From a virus: DNA of 21,446 nt. Location of the stretch: positions 1 through 21,446 of the IMG/VR virus record IMGVR_UViG_3300042445_001215; one strand, 5' to 3'. This document shows positions 7,205 to 18,460 of the stretch, one piece after another. Under the pieces are notes generated by a model. That model saw nothing but the letters and a program-made list of their open reading frames with translations. It was not told the origin of the DNA and made no database searches. A program made the translations under genes and the position numbers. The stretch's first letter is position 1. Every line of letters begins with the position of its first letter.

Positions 7205-8845
7205 TTATACTATTGTTAAAATTCCCGCATTACTATAAACTGCACCGATTGGTAAACCCGCTGATGAAGTTGGTATATTCATTATTGAAAGGTTATTTAC
7301 AAATGTTGTGTTTTCTCTATCAGATGTTATATTTGCACCTACAATATAAGAGCATTTAGTACAAGCTAGATTATTTTCACCACCTAAAATTCCCGAATAA
7401 GTATTATCAGCTGTGTTTCCTCTTCCTCCTCCAATTGTTGAATAACATCCACTTGCTGTGTTGCAATAACCACCACTTATTGTTGAGCGATTTTCACTTG
7501 CTGTGTTACTTTTACCACCTCCAATTGTTGATATATAACCACATGCTGTATTACATCTACCACCACCTACTGTTGAATAATATCCACTTGCTGTGTTACC
7601 ATATCCACCACTAATTGTTGAATAATAAAGTCCACTAGCATTATTACCATAACCGCCACTAACTGTTGAACTCTCACCACTTGCTGTGTTCATATATCCA
7701 CCACCAATAAATGACTTACCGCCACTTGCCGTGTTGACAAATCCACCACCAACTGTTGAATAGCAACCACTTGCCGTATTATTTTGTCCACCACCAATAA
7801 ATGAACAATTTCCACTTACTGTGTTTTGTCTTCCACCGACAATAGAAGCACTACCACCGCTAACAATATTAACATAACCACCACTTATTGTTGAACAAAA
7901 TGTATATGAACTAATTGTATTACAATAACCACCACTTATTGTTGATAAATATCCACTATTTGAATTATATTTACCTCCAACAACTGCTGAAAAATCACAA
8001 CTAGCTGTATTAGAATTGCCTCCACCGACAACAGAATCACGACCACTAGCTGTGTTTGATTGTCCACCACTTACAGTTGACCTATCGGCACTAGCTGTAT
8101 TATGTATACCTCCACTAACGGTTGAAGCATAACTACTTGCAGTATTTGAATAACCACCACTTATTGTAGAATAAACTCTATCTGCTGTGTTATTGTGACC
8201 TCCACTAATGGTTGAATATGCTGTATAGTTGATTGTATTATTTAGTCCTCCACTAATAGTATTGTTTTTATGAGTACTATCACTTGCATTAATTTGATTA
8301 CATATTCCTCCACCTATTGTTGAAGCATAACTACTAATTGTATTATGATAACCTCCACTTAATGTAGAAGCAAAGCTATTTGTATTATTACAGTAACCTC
8401 CACTTATTGTAGATTTATATCCACTTGCCGTATTAAACCCACCGCCACTAATTGTTGCTTTATAGCCACTAGCTGTGTTTCCTTGACCACCTCCAACAGA
8501 TGACATAGTACCACTTGATGTGTTTGTAGAACCACCTCCAACAGATGAACAACTACCACTTGCTGTGTTTGATAAACCACCACTTATTGTTGAACCACAA
8601 CCACTAACTGTATTACAATAACCACCACTAATGGTTGAATAATAGTTGCTAGCTGTATTACAATAACCACCACTTATTGTTGAATAATAGCCACTAGCTG
8701 TATTTGTTTTACCTAATGCAGTAGAATATTCACCACTAGCACAATTTGAATTGCCAATACGTCTTGATGAACCCGTTCCGCTATCTAAGTCTATAATACT
8801 AGTAGTACCTCCACCACCTCCGGATATTTGTATAAGTGTACTCAT
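7205..8845 (-). CDS. Tail adhesin built of about 30 YadA-head-like 15-residue repeats
   Basis: 546 aa. After a Gly-rich N-terminus (MSTLIQISGGGGGTTS) residues 48-505 are about 30 copies of a 15-residue unit with consensus NTASGxYSTISGGxx. This is the pattern of trimeric-autotransporter head (left-handed beta-roll) repeats. A few units are longer (16, 17 and 20 residues). Cys residues recur at fixed positions (GGYC, SGC), unusual for such a fold. The C-terminal 41 residues are non-repetitive (SIMNIPTSSAGLPIGAVYSN), typical of phage fibre tips. There is no signal peptide or autotransporter barrel, so this is a virion fibre and not a secreted adhesin. It likely forms a trimer that binds the host surface. 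Confidence 0.8.
   Translation of the reverse strand: MSTLIQISGGGGGTTSIIDLDSGTGSSRRIGNSNCASGEYSTALGKTNTASGYYSTISGGYCNTASNYYSTISGGYCNTVSGCGSTISGGLSNTASGSCSSVGGGSTNTSSGTMSSVGGGQGNTASGYKATISGGGFNTASGYKSTISGGYCNNTNSFASTLSGGYHNTISSYASTIGGGICNQINASDSTHKNNTISGGLNNTINYTAYSTISGGHNNTADRVYSTISGGYSNTASSYASTVSGGIHNTASADRSTVSGGQSNTASGRDSVVGGGNSNTASCDFSAVVGGKYNSNSGYLSTISGGYCNTISSYTFCSTISGGYVNIVSGGSASIVGGRQNTVSGNCSFIGGGQNNTASGCYSTVGGGFVNTASGGKSFIGGGYMNTASGESSTVSGGYGNNASGLYYSTISGGYGNTASGYYSTVGGGRCNTACGYISTIGGGKSNTASENRSTISGGYCNTASGCYSTIGGGRGNTADNTYSGILGGENNLACTKCSYIVGANITSDRENTTFVNNLSIMNIPTSSAGLPIGAVYSNAGILTIV
7331..8704 (-). repeat. About 30 imperfect 45-bp tandem repeats inside the adhesin gene
   Basis: The DNA repeats with a 45-bp period matching the 15-residue protein unit; recurring 10-15 bp words such as accaccacttattgttga are seen throughout on the plus strand. 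The array is a natural site for slippage or recombination that would change fibre length. Confidence 0.8.
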
Positions 8846-9227: not shown

Positions 9228-10217
9228 TTAAACTGAAGCAATATAGGTACCATTAACATATGCTTTACTAATTGTAGTTAATACAACAGGAGTTCCTTGT
9301 ATCCATAAACCTTCTCTAATTGGTGAGTTAGCTCCTCCTGATTGTTTTAAATAATGTAAATCTAATACAGTAGTTATACCTGCAGTATCTGCATTAAGTA
9401 TTGTATGACCTGTACCTGTATCAGGATCTATATTCGGATCTGCCCAAATCCAACCATTAAAATGATTATAACCTATACCAGGTGCAAATGGTAATGCTAC
9501 TTTATATTGACCTGTACCAAAATTAGTAACAGTTGTAAAATCAATCTCTATTACAAAACTAACTAGTAATCCTGATTTAACATAATAAGAATTATAGGTT
9601 GGATAGGTTATTCCACTACCTGTAAAGGTCATACCAGTTGCTTGAAATGTTGGAGAATATCTAACCCAAGTTTCTAATCCTGAAGTTCCACTAATACCTT
9701 GTATTCCTTGAATACCTTGAACTCCTTGAATCCCCTGTACACCTTGATTTCCTTGTACACCTTGGGGACCTTGATCACCTTGAGGTCCTTTAATATCTCC
9801 AGCATCAAACCAAACTGTTCCATTCCAAGTCATTAAAGATCCATCAGATAATAAAATCCAAGCATCACCTATATTGGCACCAGGAAGACTTCCCGCACCT
9901 GCATTAAATGCAGCAAGATCAGCATAGGATCCTAGTATAGTAACTGAATTACCTGCTGTACCTTGAGGTCCTTGATTTCCTTGTATTCCCTGAATTCCTT
10001 GTGAACCCTGAATACCCTGAATACCTTGCGGTCCTTGTGGTCCTACTTGTCCAGGTCCTAACTGAGTAATAAAATCTGCTACAGATATAGCACCAGCTAA
10101 ATAACCGTCATCTCTCCTATTGTCTTTTAATCCAACAGGCAGTAAAGTTTGATTAGGGTCAACAGTAGTTACTACTCTTTTACCTTTAATCCAGCTTATG
10201 AAGTTTAGTATATCCAT
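9228..10217 (-). CDS. Collagen-like tail fibre with shared N-terminal anchor module
   Basis: 329 aa. Residues 1-52 are the shared anchor (MDILNFISWIKG ... TLLPVGLKDNRRDDGYLAG). Two collagen-like Gly-X-Y runs follow, about 53-90 and 145-178, rich in GPQGIQG triplets. Between them sits a compact insert (SYADLAAFNAGAGSLPGANIGDAWILL), and after them a beta-rich C-terminal domain of about 150 residues, probably the receptor-binding tip. Collagen-like runs trimerise and act as shafts in phage fibres. The gene is the first of its unit: a terminator and the TTTTTTGTATATT motif lie just upstream. Confidence 0.85.
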   Translation of the reverse strand: MDILNFISWIKGKRVVTTVDPNQTLLPVGLKDNRRDDGYLAGAISVADFITQLGPGQVGPQGPQGIQGIQGSQGIQGIQGNQGPQGTAGNSVTILGSYADLAAFNAGAGSLPGANIGDAWILLSDGSLMTWNGTVWFDAGDIKGPQGDQGPQGVQGNQGVQGIQGVQGIQGIQGISGTSGLETWVRYSPTFQATGMTFTGSGITYPTYNSYYVKSGLLVSFVIEIDFTTVTNFGTGQYKVALPFAPGIGYNHFNGWIWADPNIDPDTGTGHTILNADTAGITTVLDLHYLKQSGGANSPIREGLWIQGTPVVLTTISKAYVNGTYIASV

Positions 10218-12416: not shown

Positions 12417-13496
12417 TTATAATGTTATTAATGCGTCTGCATAATTAATACAAGCTACTACTTTTCCTGTTCCTGATACAGAAAAGTTTCCATCTATTGC
12501 AGATGTGCCATAAAGTTTTGAATAATATAAAGTTCCAATTACATTTGTTCCAAAAGACCCTAATTGAGCAACGCAGTTAAACCCTGTTCCTGAAAAAACA
12601 GGTGTTCCAGATCCAAATTTATTAGCAAATGAATATGCTTGTGCTGTACAATTTTTAAATACTCCAGTAGATTGATAAAAACCAAATGAATTATCTCTTG
12701 CTTTACAATCAGTAAACGTACCACCAGCCTCTCCTAAACCAAATATTGGATTTGATCCAAAACAATTATCTACTCCAGTGCATCCAATAAATGTACCTAT
12801 TGCTCTTGGATCACCAAAACCTAAATAACTTATACCAATTGGTCCTGATACTGATCCTCCTGCAAATGAAAAGTTACCTCCAATACAATTAATGAAATTA
12901 CCAAATACATCACCACCAAATCCAAATGAATAATCACCTCCAACACAAGTATCAAATGTTTGCATATTAGATGAATAATCTATATTAAATCCGGTTTGGA
13001 TACCACCTATATATCCAGCAAGTAATGTGTTTAATCCTTTTAAATATGTAGCTGGTGAACTAACAGATATTCCACTTAAGTAAACATCTGCATCTCCACT
13101 TAAAGATTTAATATCAATATTTTCTGCATCTACAACAAATTGATTATATTGTGTATCAAAAAAGTAAAATCCCGGAGCAACAAAAATAGTAAATCTATTT
13201 GCAGAATTTAAAGGCTCTCCATAAGGAGTAGCTAACTTAGCTGCATCATATGCTGCTTGAAGTTCCAATCCATTTTCTTCTGGAGTAGCTTTATCACCTT
13301 TTACAACAATAAAAGAAGTTCCTTCAAGTCCTCCAGGTACTAAAGCTAAAAAATCTGTAACTGTAATAGCTCCTGCTAAGTACCCGTCATCTCTTCTTCC
13401 GTCTTTAAGACCTACTGGTAAAAGAGTTTTAGATGGATCAACAGTAGTAACTTGTCTACCTCCTTTGATCCAACTAATAAAATTTAAAATATCCAT
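12417..13496 (-). CDS. Tail fibre: shared anchor module plus beta-helix-like repeat domain
   Basis: 359 aa. Residues 1-52 are the anchor module (MDILNFISWIKGGRQVTTVD ...). Residues 60-150 (FIVVKGDKATPEENG, NRFTIFVAPGFYFF) look like the start of a beta-helix. Residues 180-310 carry irregular repeats of the form F-x-N/D-C-x-G/A-x-x-x-SFG (FDTCVGGDYSFGFGG, FINCIGGNFSFAGG, FTDCKARDNSFG, FKNCTAQAYSFA), one per rung of about 22-30 residues. Regular Cys and Phe columns would stack in the core. It is probably a surface-binding fibre; no enzymatic motif is seen. Confidence 0.8.
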   Translation of the reverse strand: MDILNFISWIKGGRQVTTVDPSKTLLPVGLKDGRRDDGYLAGAITVTDFLALVPGGLEGTSFIVVKGDKATPEENGLELQAAYDAAKLATPYGEPLNSANRFTIFVAPGFYFFDTQYNQFVVDAENIDIKSLSGDADVYLSGISVSSPATYLKGLNTLLAGYIGGIQTGFNIDYSSNMQTFDTCVGGDYSFGFGGDVFGNFINCIGGNFSFAGGSVSGPIGISYLGFGDPRAIGTFIGCTGVDNCFGSNPIFGLGEAGGTFTDCKARDNSFGFYQSTGVFKNCTAQAYSFANKFGSGTPVFSGTGFNCVAQLGSFGTNVIGTLYYSKLYGTSAIDGNFSVSGTGKVVACINYADALITL

Positions 13497-13518
13497 GATT
13501 TTATTTGTTTATTATTTG

Positions 13519-14214
13519 TTATGAGTAGACTCTTATTTCTATTGATACATTTTCAAAATTATCTTGTTGTACAAATGAAGTATCAAAATTTCTAACAATT
13601 ATAGCATTATTTTGAAGAACCCCCATAGCTGTATTATTATTTGCGTACAAGGGAACATTATTATTTTTACCACTTCCAATAAATACAAATGTTTTACCAA
13701 CAATAAAAGGACCATTACTTGGAAAAGATGATAATGATAATTTATATTGTCCAGTAGATAAATATCCCCAAGATAAATTTGCATCAATAGTATTCTCTAA
13801 TACTGTTACTACTGGAGCTCCTGTATTGAATAGTAAAGCACTGCCTCCATAACTTATAGGTGTGTCATTATTTATTGCAACAAAATAAGTACCTGGGTCA
13901 TTGTTTGGTGCACCAACATTTAAGAAGTTTCCACCAGGATTTTGAATTTGATAAGTTACTCCTTTTGTTAATGGTCCAGAACTAATTCCAATTGTATTAC
14001 CAAAACCACTCTGTGTTAATAAAGCTGTATACACTTTATATGCAGGTACTGGCGCAAGTTGTGCCGCTAAGTCTGCTACTGTAATAGCACCAGCTAAATA
14101 ACCATCATCTCTTCGGTTATCTTTTAACCCAACAGGTAATAATGTTTGTGTAGGATCAACTGAAGTAACAACTCTGCCACCCTTTATCCAAGAAATAAAA
14201 TTTAAAATATCCAT
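13519..14214 (-). CDS. Short tail fibre with shared anchor module
   Basis: 231 aa. Residues 1-54 are the anchor (MDILNFISWIKGGRVVTSVD ... DDGYLAGAITVADLAAQL). The remaining 175 residues are beta-rich and Gly/Asn-rich (IQNPGGNFLNVGAPNNDPG, KTFVFIGSGKNNNVPLYANN) and form a probable receptor-binding tip. It is the first gene of a unit, preceded by the phage motif and a terminator. No catalytic residues are visible. Confidence 0.8.
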   Translation of the reverse strand: MDILNFISWIKGGRVVTSVDPTQTLLPVGLKDNRRDDGYLAGAITVADLAAQLAPVPAYKVYTALLTQSGFGNTIGISSGPLTKGVTYQIQNPGGNFLNVGAPNNDPGTYFVAINNDTPISYGGSALLFNTGAPVVTVLENTIDANLSWGYLSTGQYKLSLSSFPSNGPFIVGKTFVFIGSGKNNNVPLYANNNTAMGVLQNNAIIVRNFDTSFVQQDNFENVSIEIRVYS

Positions 14215-14235
14215 GATTAATTTTATATATATATA

Positions 14236-14262
14236 TATCTATATTATAATATACAAAAAAAA
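14236..14262 (-). promoter_or_regulatory. Recurrent phage promoter-like motif, copy 2
   Basis: Minus strand: TTTTTTTTGTATATT at 249-262 past 14000, then TATAGATA at 236-243 past 14000, then an (AT)n run before the ATG at 14214. It follows a terminator directly. Confidence 0.55.
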
Positions 14263-14268
14263 TTTCAT

Positions 14269-14296
14269 AAAAAAAAGTCATTCTATTAAAATGACT
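14269..14296 (-). terminator. Rho-independent terminator
   Basis: Minus-strand 7-bp stem AGTCATT/AATGACT with a 7-base loop followed by eight T (269-276 past 14000). It ends transcription from the fibre gene at 14417-15301 after a repeat-bearing tail. Confidence 0.8.
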
Positions 14297-14300
14297 CTTT

Positions 14301-14405
14301 TTAGTATAAGACTCTTGTAACGGGTCCACCCCCATTAGGAGCATCTCTAAAGATATTCCCCCATTAGGCGCATCCCGTAGGATATGCCCTCTTTAGGTGC
14401 ACCCG
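14301..14405 (-). repeat. Three degenerate ~29-bp tandem repeats, remnant of a coding 3' end
   Basis: Between the fibre stop (14417) and the terminator the minus strand carries three GC-richer units sharing GATGC(G/T)CCTAATGGGGG or close variants. Each unit, read in one of the three frames, encodes Ala-Pro-Asn-Gly-Gly or Ala-Pro-Lys-Glu-Gly. The last continues as APNGGGPVTRVLY and a stop (14342 to 14301). Because the unit length is not a multiple of three, the frames do not join. It looks like a duplicated and decayed fibre C-terminus, or a recombination patch. Confidence 0.5.
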
Positions 14406-14416
14406 GTACAAAAGTA

Positions 14417-15301
14417 TTACATTGTACTTGTAATTTTATTTACATAACTTGTAGTAAAGGTAAGTCTAGTTAATGCTGAATTATTATCAGTATTAAACTT
14501 TAATGCTACATTTTCACTCATTGGACCAATTAAAAATGGTGCATCTGGTGTAGCATTTGGGTTATCAATAACTATTGCAAATCTAAATATAGTTTTCATT
14601 TTAGATGCTTTTACATCTCTATTTGATGTAGGGTACATAAAAGATTTACCAGCTTGAAACATTTTAACATAAAAACCATTAATATTTCCATTATCAGCTC
14701 CAACTGCAGTAGTAGGAACTGGAAAATCTGTTGCAGTTGTTTGTCTAGCAGTATTAGCATTTTGATCACAATACATTACCCATTGATATGGATTTAAATC
14801 AGCAAGATTAAAATACTTATAAGGCAATGTTGTAGGTAATAAAAATTCTGTATTGCGAATTAATGGATCTGGTGCAGAGTAAATAAATTCAATAATTTTT
14901 TGACTTCCTGTCCACCATCTTCCACCAGGTTGAACTCCTGCTGTATTTGTAGGATGTACAAATCCTGAAGGTTTACGTGTTGTTATAAAATTTTTACGGA
15001 TTGTTCTTTTTTTTCTAACTCTATATAAAAAGATTCTAGGATTAAGTTTTTTCCATGCATCTGATTGATAAAAATCAAGAGAGAAAGTTACATCTCCATT
15101 AACTGCTCTAGCAATTAATTTAGGGATCTCAATACCTATTCCTAGTTCATTAGAAAAGTCTGTAACAGAAATACCACCGGTTAAGTACTTATCATCTCTT
15201 CTATTATCTCTTACTCCTACTGGTATTAAAGTAGTGTCTTTATTTACATTAGTAAACTTTCTTCCACTTTTAATCCATGATATGAAATTTAATATATCCA
15301 T
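14417..15301 (-). CDS. Tail fibre with divergent anchor module and large C-terminal domain
   Basis: 294 aa. The anchor (residues 1-53, MDILNFISWIKSGRKFTNVN ... DNRRDDKYLTGG) is the most divergent of the four MDILNF copies. The C-terminal 240 residues are unique: a basic patch (RVRKKRTIRKNFITTRK, about 92-108), then a mixed Trp/Tyr-rich domain (GGRWWTGSQKIIEF, PYQWVMYCDQNANTARQ). It is probably receptor-binding. It is the first tail gene transcribed, behind a terminator and the phage promoter motif. The end of the frame (TSYVNKITSTM) is abrupt, and a repeat-like coding remnant lies just beyond, so the C-terminus may have been replaced. Confidence 0.8.
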   Translation of the reverse strand: MDILNFISWIKSGRKFTNVNKDTTLIPVGVRDNRRDDKYLTGGISVTDFSNELGIGIEIPKLIARAVNGDVTFSLDFYQSDAWKKLNPRIFLYRVRKKRTIRKNFITTRKPSGFVHPTNTAGVQPGGRWWTGSQKIIEFIYSAPDPLIRNTEFLLPTTLPYKYFNLADLNPYQWVMYCDQNANTARQTTATDFPVPTTAVGADNGNINGFYVKMFQAGKSFMYPTSNRDVKASKMKTIFRFAIVIDNPNATPDAPFLIGPMSENVALKFNTDNNSALTRLTFTTSYVNKITSTM

Positions 15302-16953: not shown

Positions 16954-16974
16954 ACTTATTTGGTTTTTAGTTTG

Positions 16975-17049
16975 AGGTACAGATAGGATTCGAACCTATG
17001 GCTTTACAGTTTTGCAGACTGTTGCTTTTGACCACTCAGCCACTGTACC
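16975..17049 (-). tRNA. tRNA-Cys (anticodon GCA)
   Basis: A full cloverleaf reads on the minus strand: acceptor GGTACAG/CTGTACC, anticodon stem ACAGT/ACTGT with loop CTGCAAA (anticodon GCA), and T arm ATAGG-TTCGAAT-CCTAT. The discriminator base is U73, the identity base of tRNA-Cys. CCA is not encoded. The gene may top up Cys decoding for Cys-containing fibres such as the repeat adhesin, which carries recurrent Cys, but this is inference. Confidence 0.92.
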
Positions 17050-17059
17050 TTATTTTATA

Positions 17060-17090
17060 CAAATATAAACTTTTTTTATTTACAAACAAA
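17060..17090 (-). promoter_or_regulatory. Bacteroidetes-type promoter for tRNA-Cys and the small-gene operon
   Basis: Minus-strand TATATTTG at 17060-17067, with TTTG words at 17083-17086 and 17087-17090 near -33. The start of transcription would be just before the tRNA 5' end. It abuts the T-tract of the upstream terminator. Confidence 0.65.
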
Positions 17091-17117
17091 AATCCCTAGA
17101 ATATTTTCTAAGGATCT
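17087..17117 (-). terminator. Rho-independent terminator upstream of tRNA-Cys
   Basis: Minus-strand 9-bp stem ATCCTTAGA/TCTAGGGAT (one G-U pair) with a 6-base loop and a five-T run. It ends a very short unit that begins near 17147. Confidence 0.75.
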
Positions 17118-17120
17118 TTC

Positions 17121-17160
17121 TTACCTAACCGTAGCAAAAATTTTCATCAATACAAATATA
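17121..17160 (-). other. Tiny promoter-minigene-terminator unit
   Basis: A -7-like TATATTTG (17153-17160) is followed by an 8-codon frame, MKIFATVR (ATG at 17147, TAA at 17121-17123), and 6 bases later by the terminator at 17087-17117. The -33 box is weak. It may be a small RNA or leader-peptide attenuator for the tRNA operon, or chance. Confidence 0.3.
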
Positions 17161-17175
17161 TAAATTATTTATGAT

Positions 17176-17657
17176 ATAAAAAACCCAGGTAGTAATTCTT
17201 GATCAGAGAAACTTTCCTGGGTGTGTTAATGGTTATACATTTCTGCTTTCCCATTAACGGAGAGACCAAGCAGCAGATCTTACGGGATGCATGCATGGTA
17301 CTGAGCCTATGTAATGAAATACACAGGGGGGTAAAAGACCTACCCTGGTACGCTCGGCTGGGTGACACCCCAACCCAGAAGCGTGGTAGGTACTATTATC
17401 TTATACCTGATATACTACAAAACTAATAATTTTTACTGTACGATATCTAATACGGGTATAAAAACAGAGGCTCCCACCTGCCTTACTCTCTGTTATGAAC
17501 TTATCTCTCCAGTAGTTCTCCCGGTGCCACAATGCTTAACCATTTGCACTCCCTCTAATAATGTTAAGTTATTGTATGAGCCAGTCTTATTTCTTCAGGG
17601 AGAACTTGAAATGGACATCCTAACGGTTATATTCCACAGCTTTTTGTCTCCCGTCTT
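17176..17657 (-). ncRNA. Candidate large structured non-coding RNA (~480 nt)
   Basis: A gene-free stretch, GC-richer than its surroundings, bounded on the minus strand by a good host-type promoter (17664-17695) and a clear terminator (17183-17222). Long perfect complementary segments include AGTTCTCCC/GGGAGAACT (17514-17522 with 17598-17606), CTTAAC/GTTAAG with an adjoining ATT/AAT (17535-17568) and GTTAATGG/CCATTAAC (17225-17258). There is also a nested 18-bp hairpin made of ACCTACC/GGTAGGT, ACGCT/AGCGT and CTGGGT/ACCCAG (17338-17391). Another stem, AACAGAG/CTCTGTT (17463-17494), is followed by five T on the minus strand and could be an internal terminator splitting the locus into two RNAs. 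No RNase P, tmRNA or group I core motif was recognised. Large phage RNAs found near tRNA genes, such as GOLLD and ROOL, are candidates to compare. Confidence 0.7.
17177..17222 (-). terminator. Rho-independent terminator of the structured RNA
   Basis: Minus-strand 7-bp stem ACCCAGG/CCTGGGT (17216-17222 with 17183-17189) around a 26-base partly paired loop, followed by six T. Its polarity fixes the RNA on the minus strand. Confidence 0.8.
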
Positions 17658-17663
17658 ATACCA

Positions 17664-17695
17664 CAAATATATATTATAATATGCATAACACCAAA
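17664..17695 (-). promoter_or_regulatory. Bacteroidetes-type promoter for the structured RNA
   Basis: Minus-strand TATATTTG (17664-17671) with TTTG at 17692-17695, 20 bases upstream. The predicted transcript start is near 17657. Confidence 0.6.
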
Positions 17696-17826
17696 TATAA
17701 CTTACAAATGCATGCTATACTTTACATATTATACCAAATATACTTTACATAATAGTACTACATTGTAAATTTTATTTAAGGTTATACCCTTAAGGTAGAT
17801 CCCTTAGTTTCAGGTTATACCCTTAA
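17690..17826. repeat. Repeat-rich regulatory stretch upstream of the structured RNA
   Basis: Two pairs of direct repeats. ACCAAATATA(A)CTTTACA-like words lie at 17690-17706 and 17731-17747, and TATACTTTACATA occurs at 17715-17727 and again about 24 bases on. A 14-base GGTTATACCCTTAA lies at about 17780 and again at about 17813. The first pair carries extra TAnnTTTG boxes on the minus strand; the second contains TTAAGG/CCTTAA inverted repeats near the stop of the gene at 17828. They may be operator or alternative promoter sites, or a weak terminator. Confidence 0.45.
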
Positions 17827-17827
17827 A

Positions 17828-18460
17828 TTATTCATTATCATAGAACATTCTTTCTGAATCTTCTGTACTCCATTTCTCAAATCCTTCACAATTATAGTAG
17901 TCTTTGTTAACTAAGTAGTCTGGTTTTTCAGGAAATGGTTTAGTTACAAAGCTAGGTTCAGACCACTTAATTCTGTTGTTAGGTTGTAATGCTATTTGAC
18001 CGTTGTCAAGTAATATAATGTGGTGACTCTTATGTTCTAATGGATCTTCTGCTAAAGATAGATCTGTGTTGTGATCATTAGACCCCCAGTTGATAGTAGC
18101 ATAATAACTACCCGGGTAGAACTTGTGATCTTTCATATAGACTTCTACCCTAGTGTCGTACAAATATGACAAGTGTAGTAGAGTAAAGTTATAAGAGAAG
18201 CAATTCCATATCTGAAGATAATGAAACGGTAGATCTACTTCCGGTATTTTGTTCTCATGAAGTAGAGCATGGCTTGGTAACTTATCTCTAAGTACTCCAT
18301 TATCTAACAGTACTTGAAATAGTGCTGCTTGTCCCGGCATACATCTTACTGATATAATTACCCCCGGTGTTAATTCTCCGTGTCCTTTCTTATGTTGGTA
18401 CATGTACTCATTTCTAACAAAGACTTTGAGTGGAAAAAAGTTATGTTCTATATGTGCCAT
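17828..18460 (-). CDS. Conserved hypothetical phage protein
   Basis: 210 aa, MAHIEHNFFPLKVFVRNEYM ..., rich in aromatic residues and His. Recognisable blocks are YQHKKGHGELTPG, VISVRCMPGQAALFQVLL, DLPFHYLQIWNCFSYNFT and IALQPNNRIKWSEPSF. Proteins of this type occur in marine T4-like and other aquatic phages without an assigned role. There is no signal peptide or membrane helix. It lies one base after the AlkB-like gene's stop and is probably co-transcribed from the 18974 promoter. The PNNR and WxxPS motifs late in the protein may mark a binding site, but nothing more can be claimed. Confidence 0.75.
   Translation of the reverse strand: MAHIEHNFFPLKVFVRNEYMYQHKKGHGELTPGVIISVRCMPGQAALFQVLLDNGVLRDKLPSHALLHENKIPEVDLPFHYLQIWNCFSYNFTLLHLSYLYDTRVEVYMKDHKFYPGSYYATINWGSNDHNTDLSLAEDPLEHKSHHIILLDNGQIALQPNNRIKWSEPSFVTKPFPEKPDYLVNKDYYNCEGFEKWSTEDSERMFYDNE

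Follow-up and report, generated by a model that had tools for sequence, protein, structure and literature searches.

A small noncoding-RNA island of a phage, with two predicted structured RNAs in tandem

Introduction
A gene-free block of about 480 nt beside a tRNA gene in a freshwater phage genome raises the question of what it encodes, whether one long ornate RNA of a kind already described or something else. GOLLD and ROOL are phage RNAs found near tRNA islands, GOLLD forming a 14-mer RNA nanocage and ROOL a kissing-loop homo-oligomer, and both have recently been shown to build RNA-only cages (PMC12286853). The 3' region of GOLLD is conserved, its 5' region is less so, and the linker holds a tRNA (PMC12286853). 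The block treated here lies at 17657-17176 of a window that comprises an entire IMG/VR virus record of 21,446 bases. A preliminary sequence-only reading took it for a single RNA of ~480 nt between its own promoter and terminator, compared its habitat with that of GOLLD and ROOL, and left open whether it was a divergent member or a new class. In this study, metagenomic relatives of the block were collected and compared, and the results support a small noncoding-RNA island that encodes two structured RNAs, here RNA-A and RNA-B, and favour a new class over a divergent member of GOLLD or ROOL.

Results
The minus strand of the window carries most genes up to ~19,000, and the block is a gene-free, structured RNA locus in minus-strand sense, running from a Bacteroidota-type promoter to a strong intrinsic terminator (Table 1). 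It forms a local GC maximum (~0.40-0.44 against ~0.31 in the flanks) and adjoins tRNA-Cys; its gene-free character, raised GC, framing signals and neighbouring tRNA were all confirmed as first described. The strong minus-strand terminator that had been claimed is the stem CCCAGG 17221-17216 / CCTGGG 17189-17184, followed by U's. Ahead of RNA-A the promoter has the spacing TTTG-N20-TATATTTG and is conserved in the related loci L003, L004 and L117; promoters of the form TTTG...TAnnTTTG are well established for Bacteroidota and point to a host of that phylum. The upstream gene, of family phrog_3704, is annotated as 'ferredoxin' or PurM in cyanophages, and Flavobacterium phage immuto carries a distant relative. 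Between RNA-B and tRNA-Cys a third tiny transcript is possible, made up of TATATTTG at 17160-17153 and a terminator hairpin ATCCTTAGA 17115-17107 / TCTAGGGAT 17100-17092 with a U run; terminator units resembling it are present in L058, L061 and L077. Further short terminated units were seen downstream of RNA-B in L009, L022 and L107, and also in L025, L046 and L112.

Table 1. Positions of the RNAs, their parts and neighbouring features (window coordinates unless a locus is named)
Feature	Position	Strand	Remarks
Gene upstream of locus	17828-18460	-	phrog_3704
RNA-A promoter	17664-17695	-	-33-like TTTG 17695-17692 and -7 box TATATTTG 17671-17664; Bacteroidota type
RNA-A	~17657-17460	-	~200 nt
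RNA-A 5' domain	17598-17655	-	GGGAG/CUCCC stem around a second hairpin
RNA-A core	17455-17584	-	five main hairpins; alignment A3, 12 sequences
Candidate -7 box before RNA-B	17418-17425	-	TAGTTTTG, weak
RNA-B	~17412-17177	-	~235 nt here
hp0 (18-bp hairpin)	17337-17393	-	starts GUACC, ends GGUC, as in the P2/P3 domain downstream
RNA-B conserved core	17163-17330	-	match to model R1, 168 bits; hp3, P2/P3, P4 with hp4, P5
hp3	17327-17306	-	RNA-B helix
P2 and P3	17301-17264	-	RNA-B helices
P4	17225-17258	-	GUUAAUGG 17258-17251 / CCAUUAAC 17232-17225; encloses exchangeable hp4
P5	17178-17223	-	serves as intrinsic terminator and 3' domain; CUGAUCA in apical loop, 17206-17200
Possible third tiny transcript	17088-17160	-	between RNA-B and tRNA-Cys; sequence only
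tRNA-Cys(GCA)	16974-17049	-	TATATTTG in front at 17067-17060
Lipoprotein ORF	L003:3008-3367; L004:5601-5951; L006:2688-3044; also L117, L135		follows RNA-A
freshwater-1 (RF02979)	L162:9983-10044	-	74.5 bits
freshwater-1 (RF02979)	L114:668-729	-	70.9 bits, just below its cut-off

Elsewhere on the minus strand of the window, several tail-region proteins (9228-10217 and 12417-15301) share an N-terminal module, MDILNFISWIK(G/S)GR..T.VDP..TLLPVGLKDxRRDDGYLAG, and differ in their C-terminal parts, the product of 9228-10217 having collagen-like GPQGxQG repeats in addition. A 546-aa protein encoded at 7205-8845, also on the minus strand, is built of SGGYxNTASGxYSTISGG repeats.

With the neighbouring gene as bait, 80 loci were retrieved from IMG/VR, and the RNA was then located by profile search and DNA patterns. 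Every homologue is metagenomic, and the homologue counts, coming from exact-pattern scans, are lower bounds. RNA-B, the better-conserved 3' half, is represented by 50 distinct sequences with a mean pairwise identity of 67.5% (minimum 51%), and RNA-A, the 5' half, is rarer, with ~7 arrangements. The usual dose of RNA-B is one copy per virus record. Two tandem copies occur in L119 (at ~3.5-3.9 kb, minus strand) and L132, and the second tandem copy has diverged and bears GACG as its P5 loop. The exact RNA-B core pattern had 0 matches among 84,980 bacterial and archaeal species, each represented by a single genome, an absence that fits an element of lytic phages. Searches of phage records by blastn with three queries gave chance or tRNA matches only and no homologue, and the RNA-B model did not match the Bacteroidota phage isolate immuto.

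Comparison of the homologues shows a conserved, covarying predicted fold for RNA-B. It carries a terminator of its own, and often it either has a separate promoter as well or lies within a tRNA array. In other phages its length, measured from hp3 through the U run, is 150-230 nt. The 18-bp hairpin first noticed at ~17338-17391 is real and recurs in L004, L085, L135, L131 and L159; since its ends match those of the P2/P3 domain, and since it replaces that domain in L159, hp0 is probably a duplicated P2/P3 domain. The hp4 of the window is a short form capped by GAAA. In P5 both the outer stem (8 pairs) and the inner stem (4 pairs) are retained with many compensatory changes, one pair appearing as AU, UA, CG and GC and the inner stem showing CG, GC and AU. 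In a MAFFT alignment made without fitting to the structure, pairing holds in 93.8% of cells and 17/34 pairs are changed on both sides; in slid controls, where partners were moved by 1-3 columns, the corresponding values are 31-42% and 3-7 pairs. Doubly changed cells in this alignment numbered 125, compared with 41 in shuffles, a control that ignores relatedness, as the slid control does not. The 50 model-aligned sequences, in an alignment whose fitting leans towards the structure, gave 95.8% paired cells and 21 doubly changed pairs out of 34. No conserved protein frame crosses RNA-B (0-5 of the 50 sequences open per frame), and RNA-B alone (17412-17177) folds with an energy z of -4.5, none of 200 shuffles being as stable. 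For the whole block z is -2.9 on either strand, thus energy cannot tell the strand.

RNA-A likewise shows a conserved, covarying predicted secondary structure among its homologues, and its folding energy taken alone (z = +0.3) is no more stable than that of shuffled sequence. Under the RNAalifold structure, derived from the same alignment of 12 sequences as was scored, 99.0% of cells are paired and 13/32 pairs are doubly changed, with 34-49% of cells paired in slid controls. In both RNAs compensatory changes stand above the slid controls, and the claim of a structured RNA locus proved right; in both, too, double changes are not independent of one another, as the sequences are related. The 5' domain is confined to the closer relatives of the window and L085, and is missing in L107, L134-L136 and L162; in L085 an inserted tRNA parts it from the core. 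The 9-bp long-range pair proposed at first between 17514-17522 and 17598-17606 is not conserved among relatives: its 5' partner GTTCTCCC is constant in L004, L005, L003 and L117, although the 3' partner, GGGAGAAC in the window, is GGGTAGAC or GGGTGAGT in these loci. GTTCTCCC instead pairs with GGGAG 17652-17648 in the predicted 5' domain, in 6/6 sequences folded. The last RNA-A hairpin, AACAGAG 17494-17488 / CTCTGTT 17469-17463 with a U run, is terminator-like and has a conserved loop, AAGNYAGGUGGGAG; the U run is found in most relatives and not in L085, L134 and L136.

Two ORFs of relatives are missing from the window. One, after RNA-A in close relatives and flanked by RNA-B where the two RNAs are neighbours, encodes a predicted lipoprotein of 116-119 aa (lipobox LTGCKKEEY) with no Pfam match; the other, L004:4720-5190, is of the GIY-YIG type (MUG113/T5orf172) with an HTH and is inserted after the phrog_3704 gene, ahead of RNA-A.

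Every RNA-B copy except two has YUGAUCA as its P5 loop, while the stem covaries; in the two exceptions, L161 and the second of the L119 copies, a GACG hairpin takes its place. The hp4 hairpin is swapped between backgrounds in three forms: short forms, including that of the window, end in tetraloops of GNRA, UUCG or UUAG type that are not self-complementary, medium forms contain GUAC or GAUAUC in the loop, and long forms carry either ACGCG or an invariant GACG, the latter on six different stems. Self-complementary loop sequences are UGAUCA, ACGCGU, GGUACC and AGAUAUCU. Shuffle tests of the palindromic hp4 loops, each weak by itself, were no more than suggestive (P of 0.015-0.28, with L127 and L158 as exceptions). 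The P5 loop never switched to another palindrome, hence its covariation provides no proof of dimers.

At the Rfam gathering threshold there was no GOLLD, ROOL or intron match in the window or its relatives; no known RNA matched the block, tRNA alone being found in the window. With E up to 10, the region 17050-17830 likewise gave no GOLLD or ROOL match, and the STnc130, STnc370 and psRNA6 matches returned by the permissive search were rejected as far below cut-off. Neither RNA corresponds to a described family in Rfam 15 or in the open-access literature searched, which supports RNA-A and RNA-B as new RNA families outside those described there.

Discussion
The comparative evidence resolves 17657-17176 into a minus-strand tandem of two structured RNAs, each a separable gene or module. 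Most loci have RNA-B without RNA-A, and in phages carrying both, RNA-A always has RNA-B downstream on the same strand, at spacings of 179, 233, 283, ~365, ~600-650, 1424 and 11087 nt. Between the two lie a tRNA-Met in L085 and the 116-119-aa lipoprotein ORF in L003-L006, L027 and L117, and RNA-A is split from RNA-B in L107 and L162 by a terminator-like hairpin together with a fresh TAnnTTT[GA] box. An unlikely alternative is that RNA-A and RNA-B are halves of one long ornate RNA of GOLLD/ROOL type, ~480 nt here and reaching ~700 nt in relatives, whose 3' region would be conserved and 5' region variable, at times with a tRNA embedded in it. The constant order on one strand is consistent with this, as is the published account of the GOLLD layout, with its conserved 3' part, its less conserved 5' part and its linker tRNA (PMC12286853), and so is L085, where the last RNA-A hairpin lacks its U run, a tRNA lies within RNA-A, and tRNA-Met, hp0 and RNA-B come next without an obvious promoter. 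However, RNA-B is solitary in most phages, the two are 1.4 kb apart in L135 and 11 kb apart in L134, the units are kept apart in the window, as in L107 and L162, by a terminator-like hairpin with its U run plus a box resembling TAnnTTT[GA], and no conserved pair between RNA-A and RNA-B was found. Thus the promoter and terminator framing of the original proposal holds, and its single RNA gives way to two separable units; in the window these may nevertheless form one transcript, since the RNA-B promoter box TAGTTTTG is weak. The ORF between the two RNAs in relatives had also raised the idea of an intron, which was dropped because the ORF codes for a small lipoprotein rather than an endonuclease and none of the intron models gave a match.

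The first sizeable genes downstream of RNA-B, defined as the longest ORF to begin within 700 nt and present at 47 of the 50 loci, fall into 19 unrelated clusters, without the one consistent gene or pathway expected of a cis-regulator. About one third of loci have tRNA genes within 600 nt of RNA-B, several have it inside tRNA arrays (L086, L097, L108, L114, L131, L159 and L163), and TAnnTTTG stands at most 140 nt upstream of it at 27/50 loci, against 3.9 expected from mononucleotide shuffles. Given the unrelated downstream clusters, the tRNA arrays and the freshwater-1 neighbour described below, RNA-B probably acts in trans rather than as a riboswitch. We propose that RNA-B would be synthesised during infection alongside the phage tRNAs, would be kept stable by its terminal hairpin and would function as a folded RNA; on balance, we lean towards the whole locus being a Bacteroidota phage island of two trans-acting RNAs, RNA-A and RNA-B, in minus-strand tandem.

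Other modes of action fit less well. It is rather improbable that the RNAs are decoys or mimics shielding the phage translation apparatus, for example tRNA-like hairpins for host anticodon nucleases. The tRNA-array habitat would suit such a role, and the 7-nt P5 loop Y-U-G-A-U-C-A on its short stem, a pyrimidine followed by U, would look like an anticodon loop (Y32, U33, GAU), but the would-be position 37 is C where tRNAs have a purine, a GACG tetraloop hairpin can substitute, as in L161 and the second L119 copy, and no further tRNA-like feature was seen. Very unlikely, in our view, is a cis-regulatory leader or riboswitch-attenuator of the next gene: an intrinsic terminator does lie immediately upstream of genes at some loci (L057, L087), but what follows RNA-B includes tRNAs and other small RNAs besides the unrelated genes, fresh TAnnTTT[GA] promoter-like boxes often come after the terminator, and inspection revealed no obvious alternative antiterminator pairing. 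That the segments are mere strong terminators or intergenic punctuation without trans function is hardly credible, for even if P5 and the last RNA-A hairpin are terminators or terminator-like and the same intergenic regions hold many short promoter-terminator units, covarying structure and invariant loops lie far upstream of the terminators (P2, P3, P4, hp3 and all of RNA-A), and structure beyond terminators is not selected by termination alone.

How two trans-acting RNAs might work is hinted at by the loops. Retroviral RNA dimers are linked by GACG tetraloops and palindromic loops (PMC516450), and RNA-B shares with those dimer-linkage stem-loops its hairpins capped by short palindromes or GACG, a resemblance of loop motifs without homology. 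The loop sequences suggest, short of proof, self-association of RNA-B by kissing loops, in which RNA-B molecules would pair via their self-complementary apical loops (UGAUCA or GACG in P5; GACG, ACGCG, GUAC or GAUAUC in hp4). We raise tentatively that the dimers or larger assemblies so formed would bind or sequester a host factor, in a GOLLD/ROOL-like manner and without homology to either. Somewhat more doubtful is that RNA-B represents a new class of small phage RNA which would homo-oligomerise via exchangeable self-complementary loops, that of its own terminator included. On that view RNA-B would be a functional equivalent of GOLLD and ROOL in miniature, and would be produced alongside RNA-A and freshwater-1 in Bacteroidota phage tRNA islands. 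A pairing between the P3 loop (AGAUCU) and the P5 loop (UGAUCA) was also considered and is unsupported, as the P3 loop varies (GAAC, GCAC, GCUC) and P5 is constant; complementarity to the 3' end of host 16S was likewise weighed and dropped.

The likeness to GOLLD is thus one of habitat and plan, not of homology: RNA-A and RNA-B are phage-borne, intergenic and structured, lie near or inside tRNA islands, sometimes with embedded tRNAs, and pair a conserved 3' part with a variable 5' part. In this the earlier comparison was apt, whereas divergent membership found no signal even in the permissive cmscan and the option of a new class is upheld. GOLLD is often >800 nt, whereas RNA-B has 150-240 nt and 5-6 simple hairpins in separable units, and its oligomerisation is a hypothesis drawn from loop sequences. 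ROOL also occurs near tRNA islands, in phages and prophages, and is itself a homo-oligomer through kissing loops, but it has a single complex fold with pseudoknots, of which none was identified in RNA-A or RNA-B, and no Rfam match links them. Because the models fail and the size is much smaller, RNA-A and RNA-B are not filed as members of either family. With GOLLD and ROOL known to build RNA-only cages (PMC12286853), a much smaller pair of tRNA-island RNAs with clean covariation, a compact fold and self-complementary loops that can be interchanged would lend itself far more readily to synthesis, mutation and testing.

A third RNA of such islands is freshwater-1 (RF02979), which in L162 and L114 shares a phage tRNA island and strand with RNA-B and lies upstream of it. 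Like RNA-A and RNA-B it is an orphan small structured RNA of phage tRNA islands, but its sequence and fold (62 positions) are different, and its model misses both RNAs and has no match in the window. Its presence in RNA-B islands provides a phage context for that orphan family, and together these findings suggest that Bacteroidota phages have in their tRNA islands a wealth of structured RNAs yet to be described. The islands of L162 and L114 contain further unannotated, structured-looking spacers, and L114:2664-2725 (minus strand) matches the Pistol ribozyme with 48 bits, against a cut-off of 34.5.
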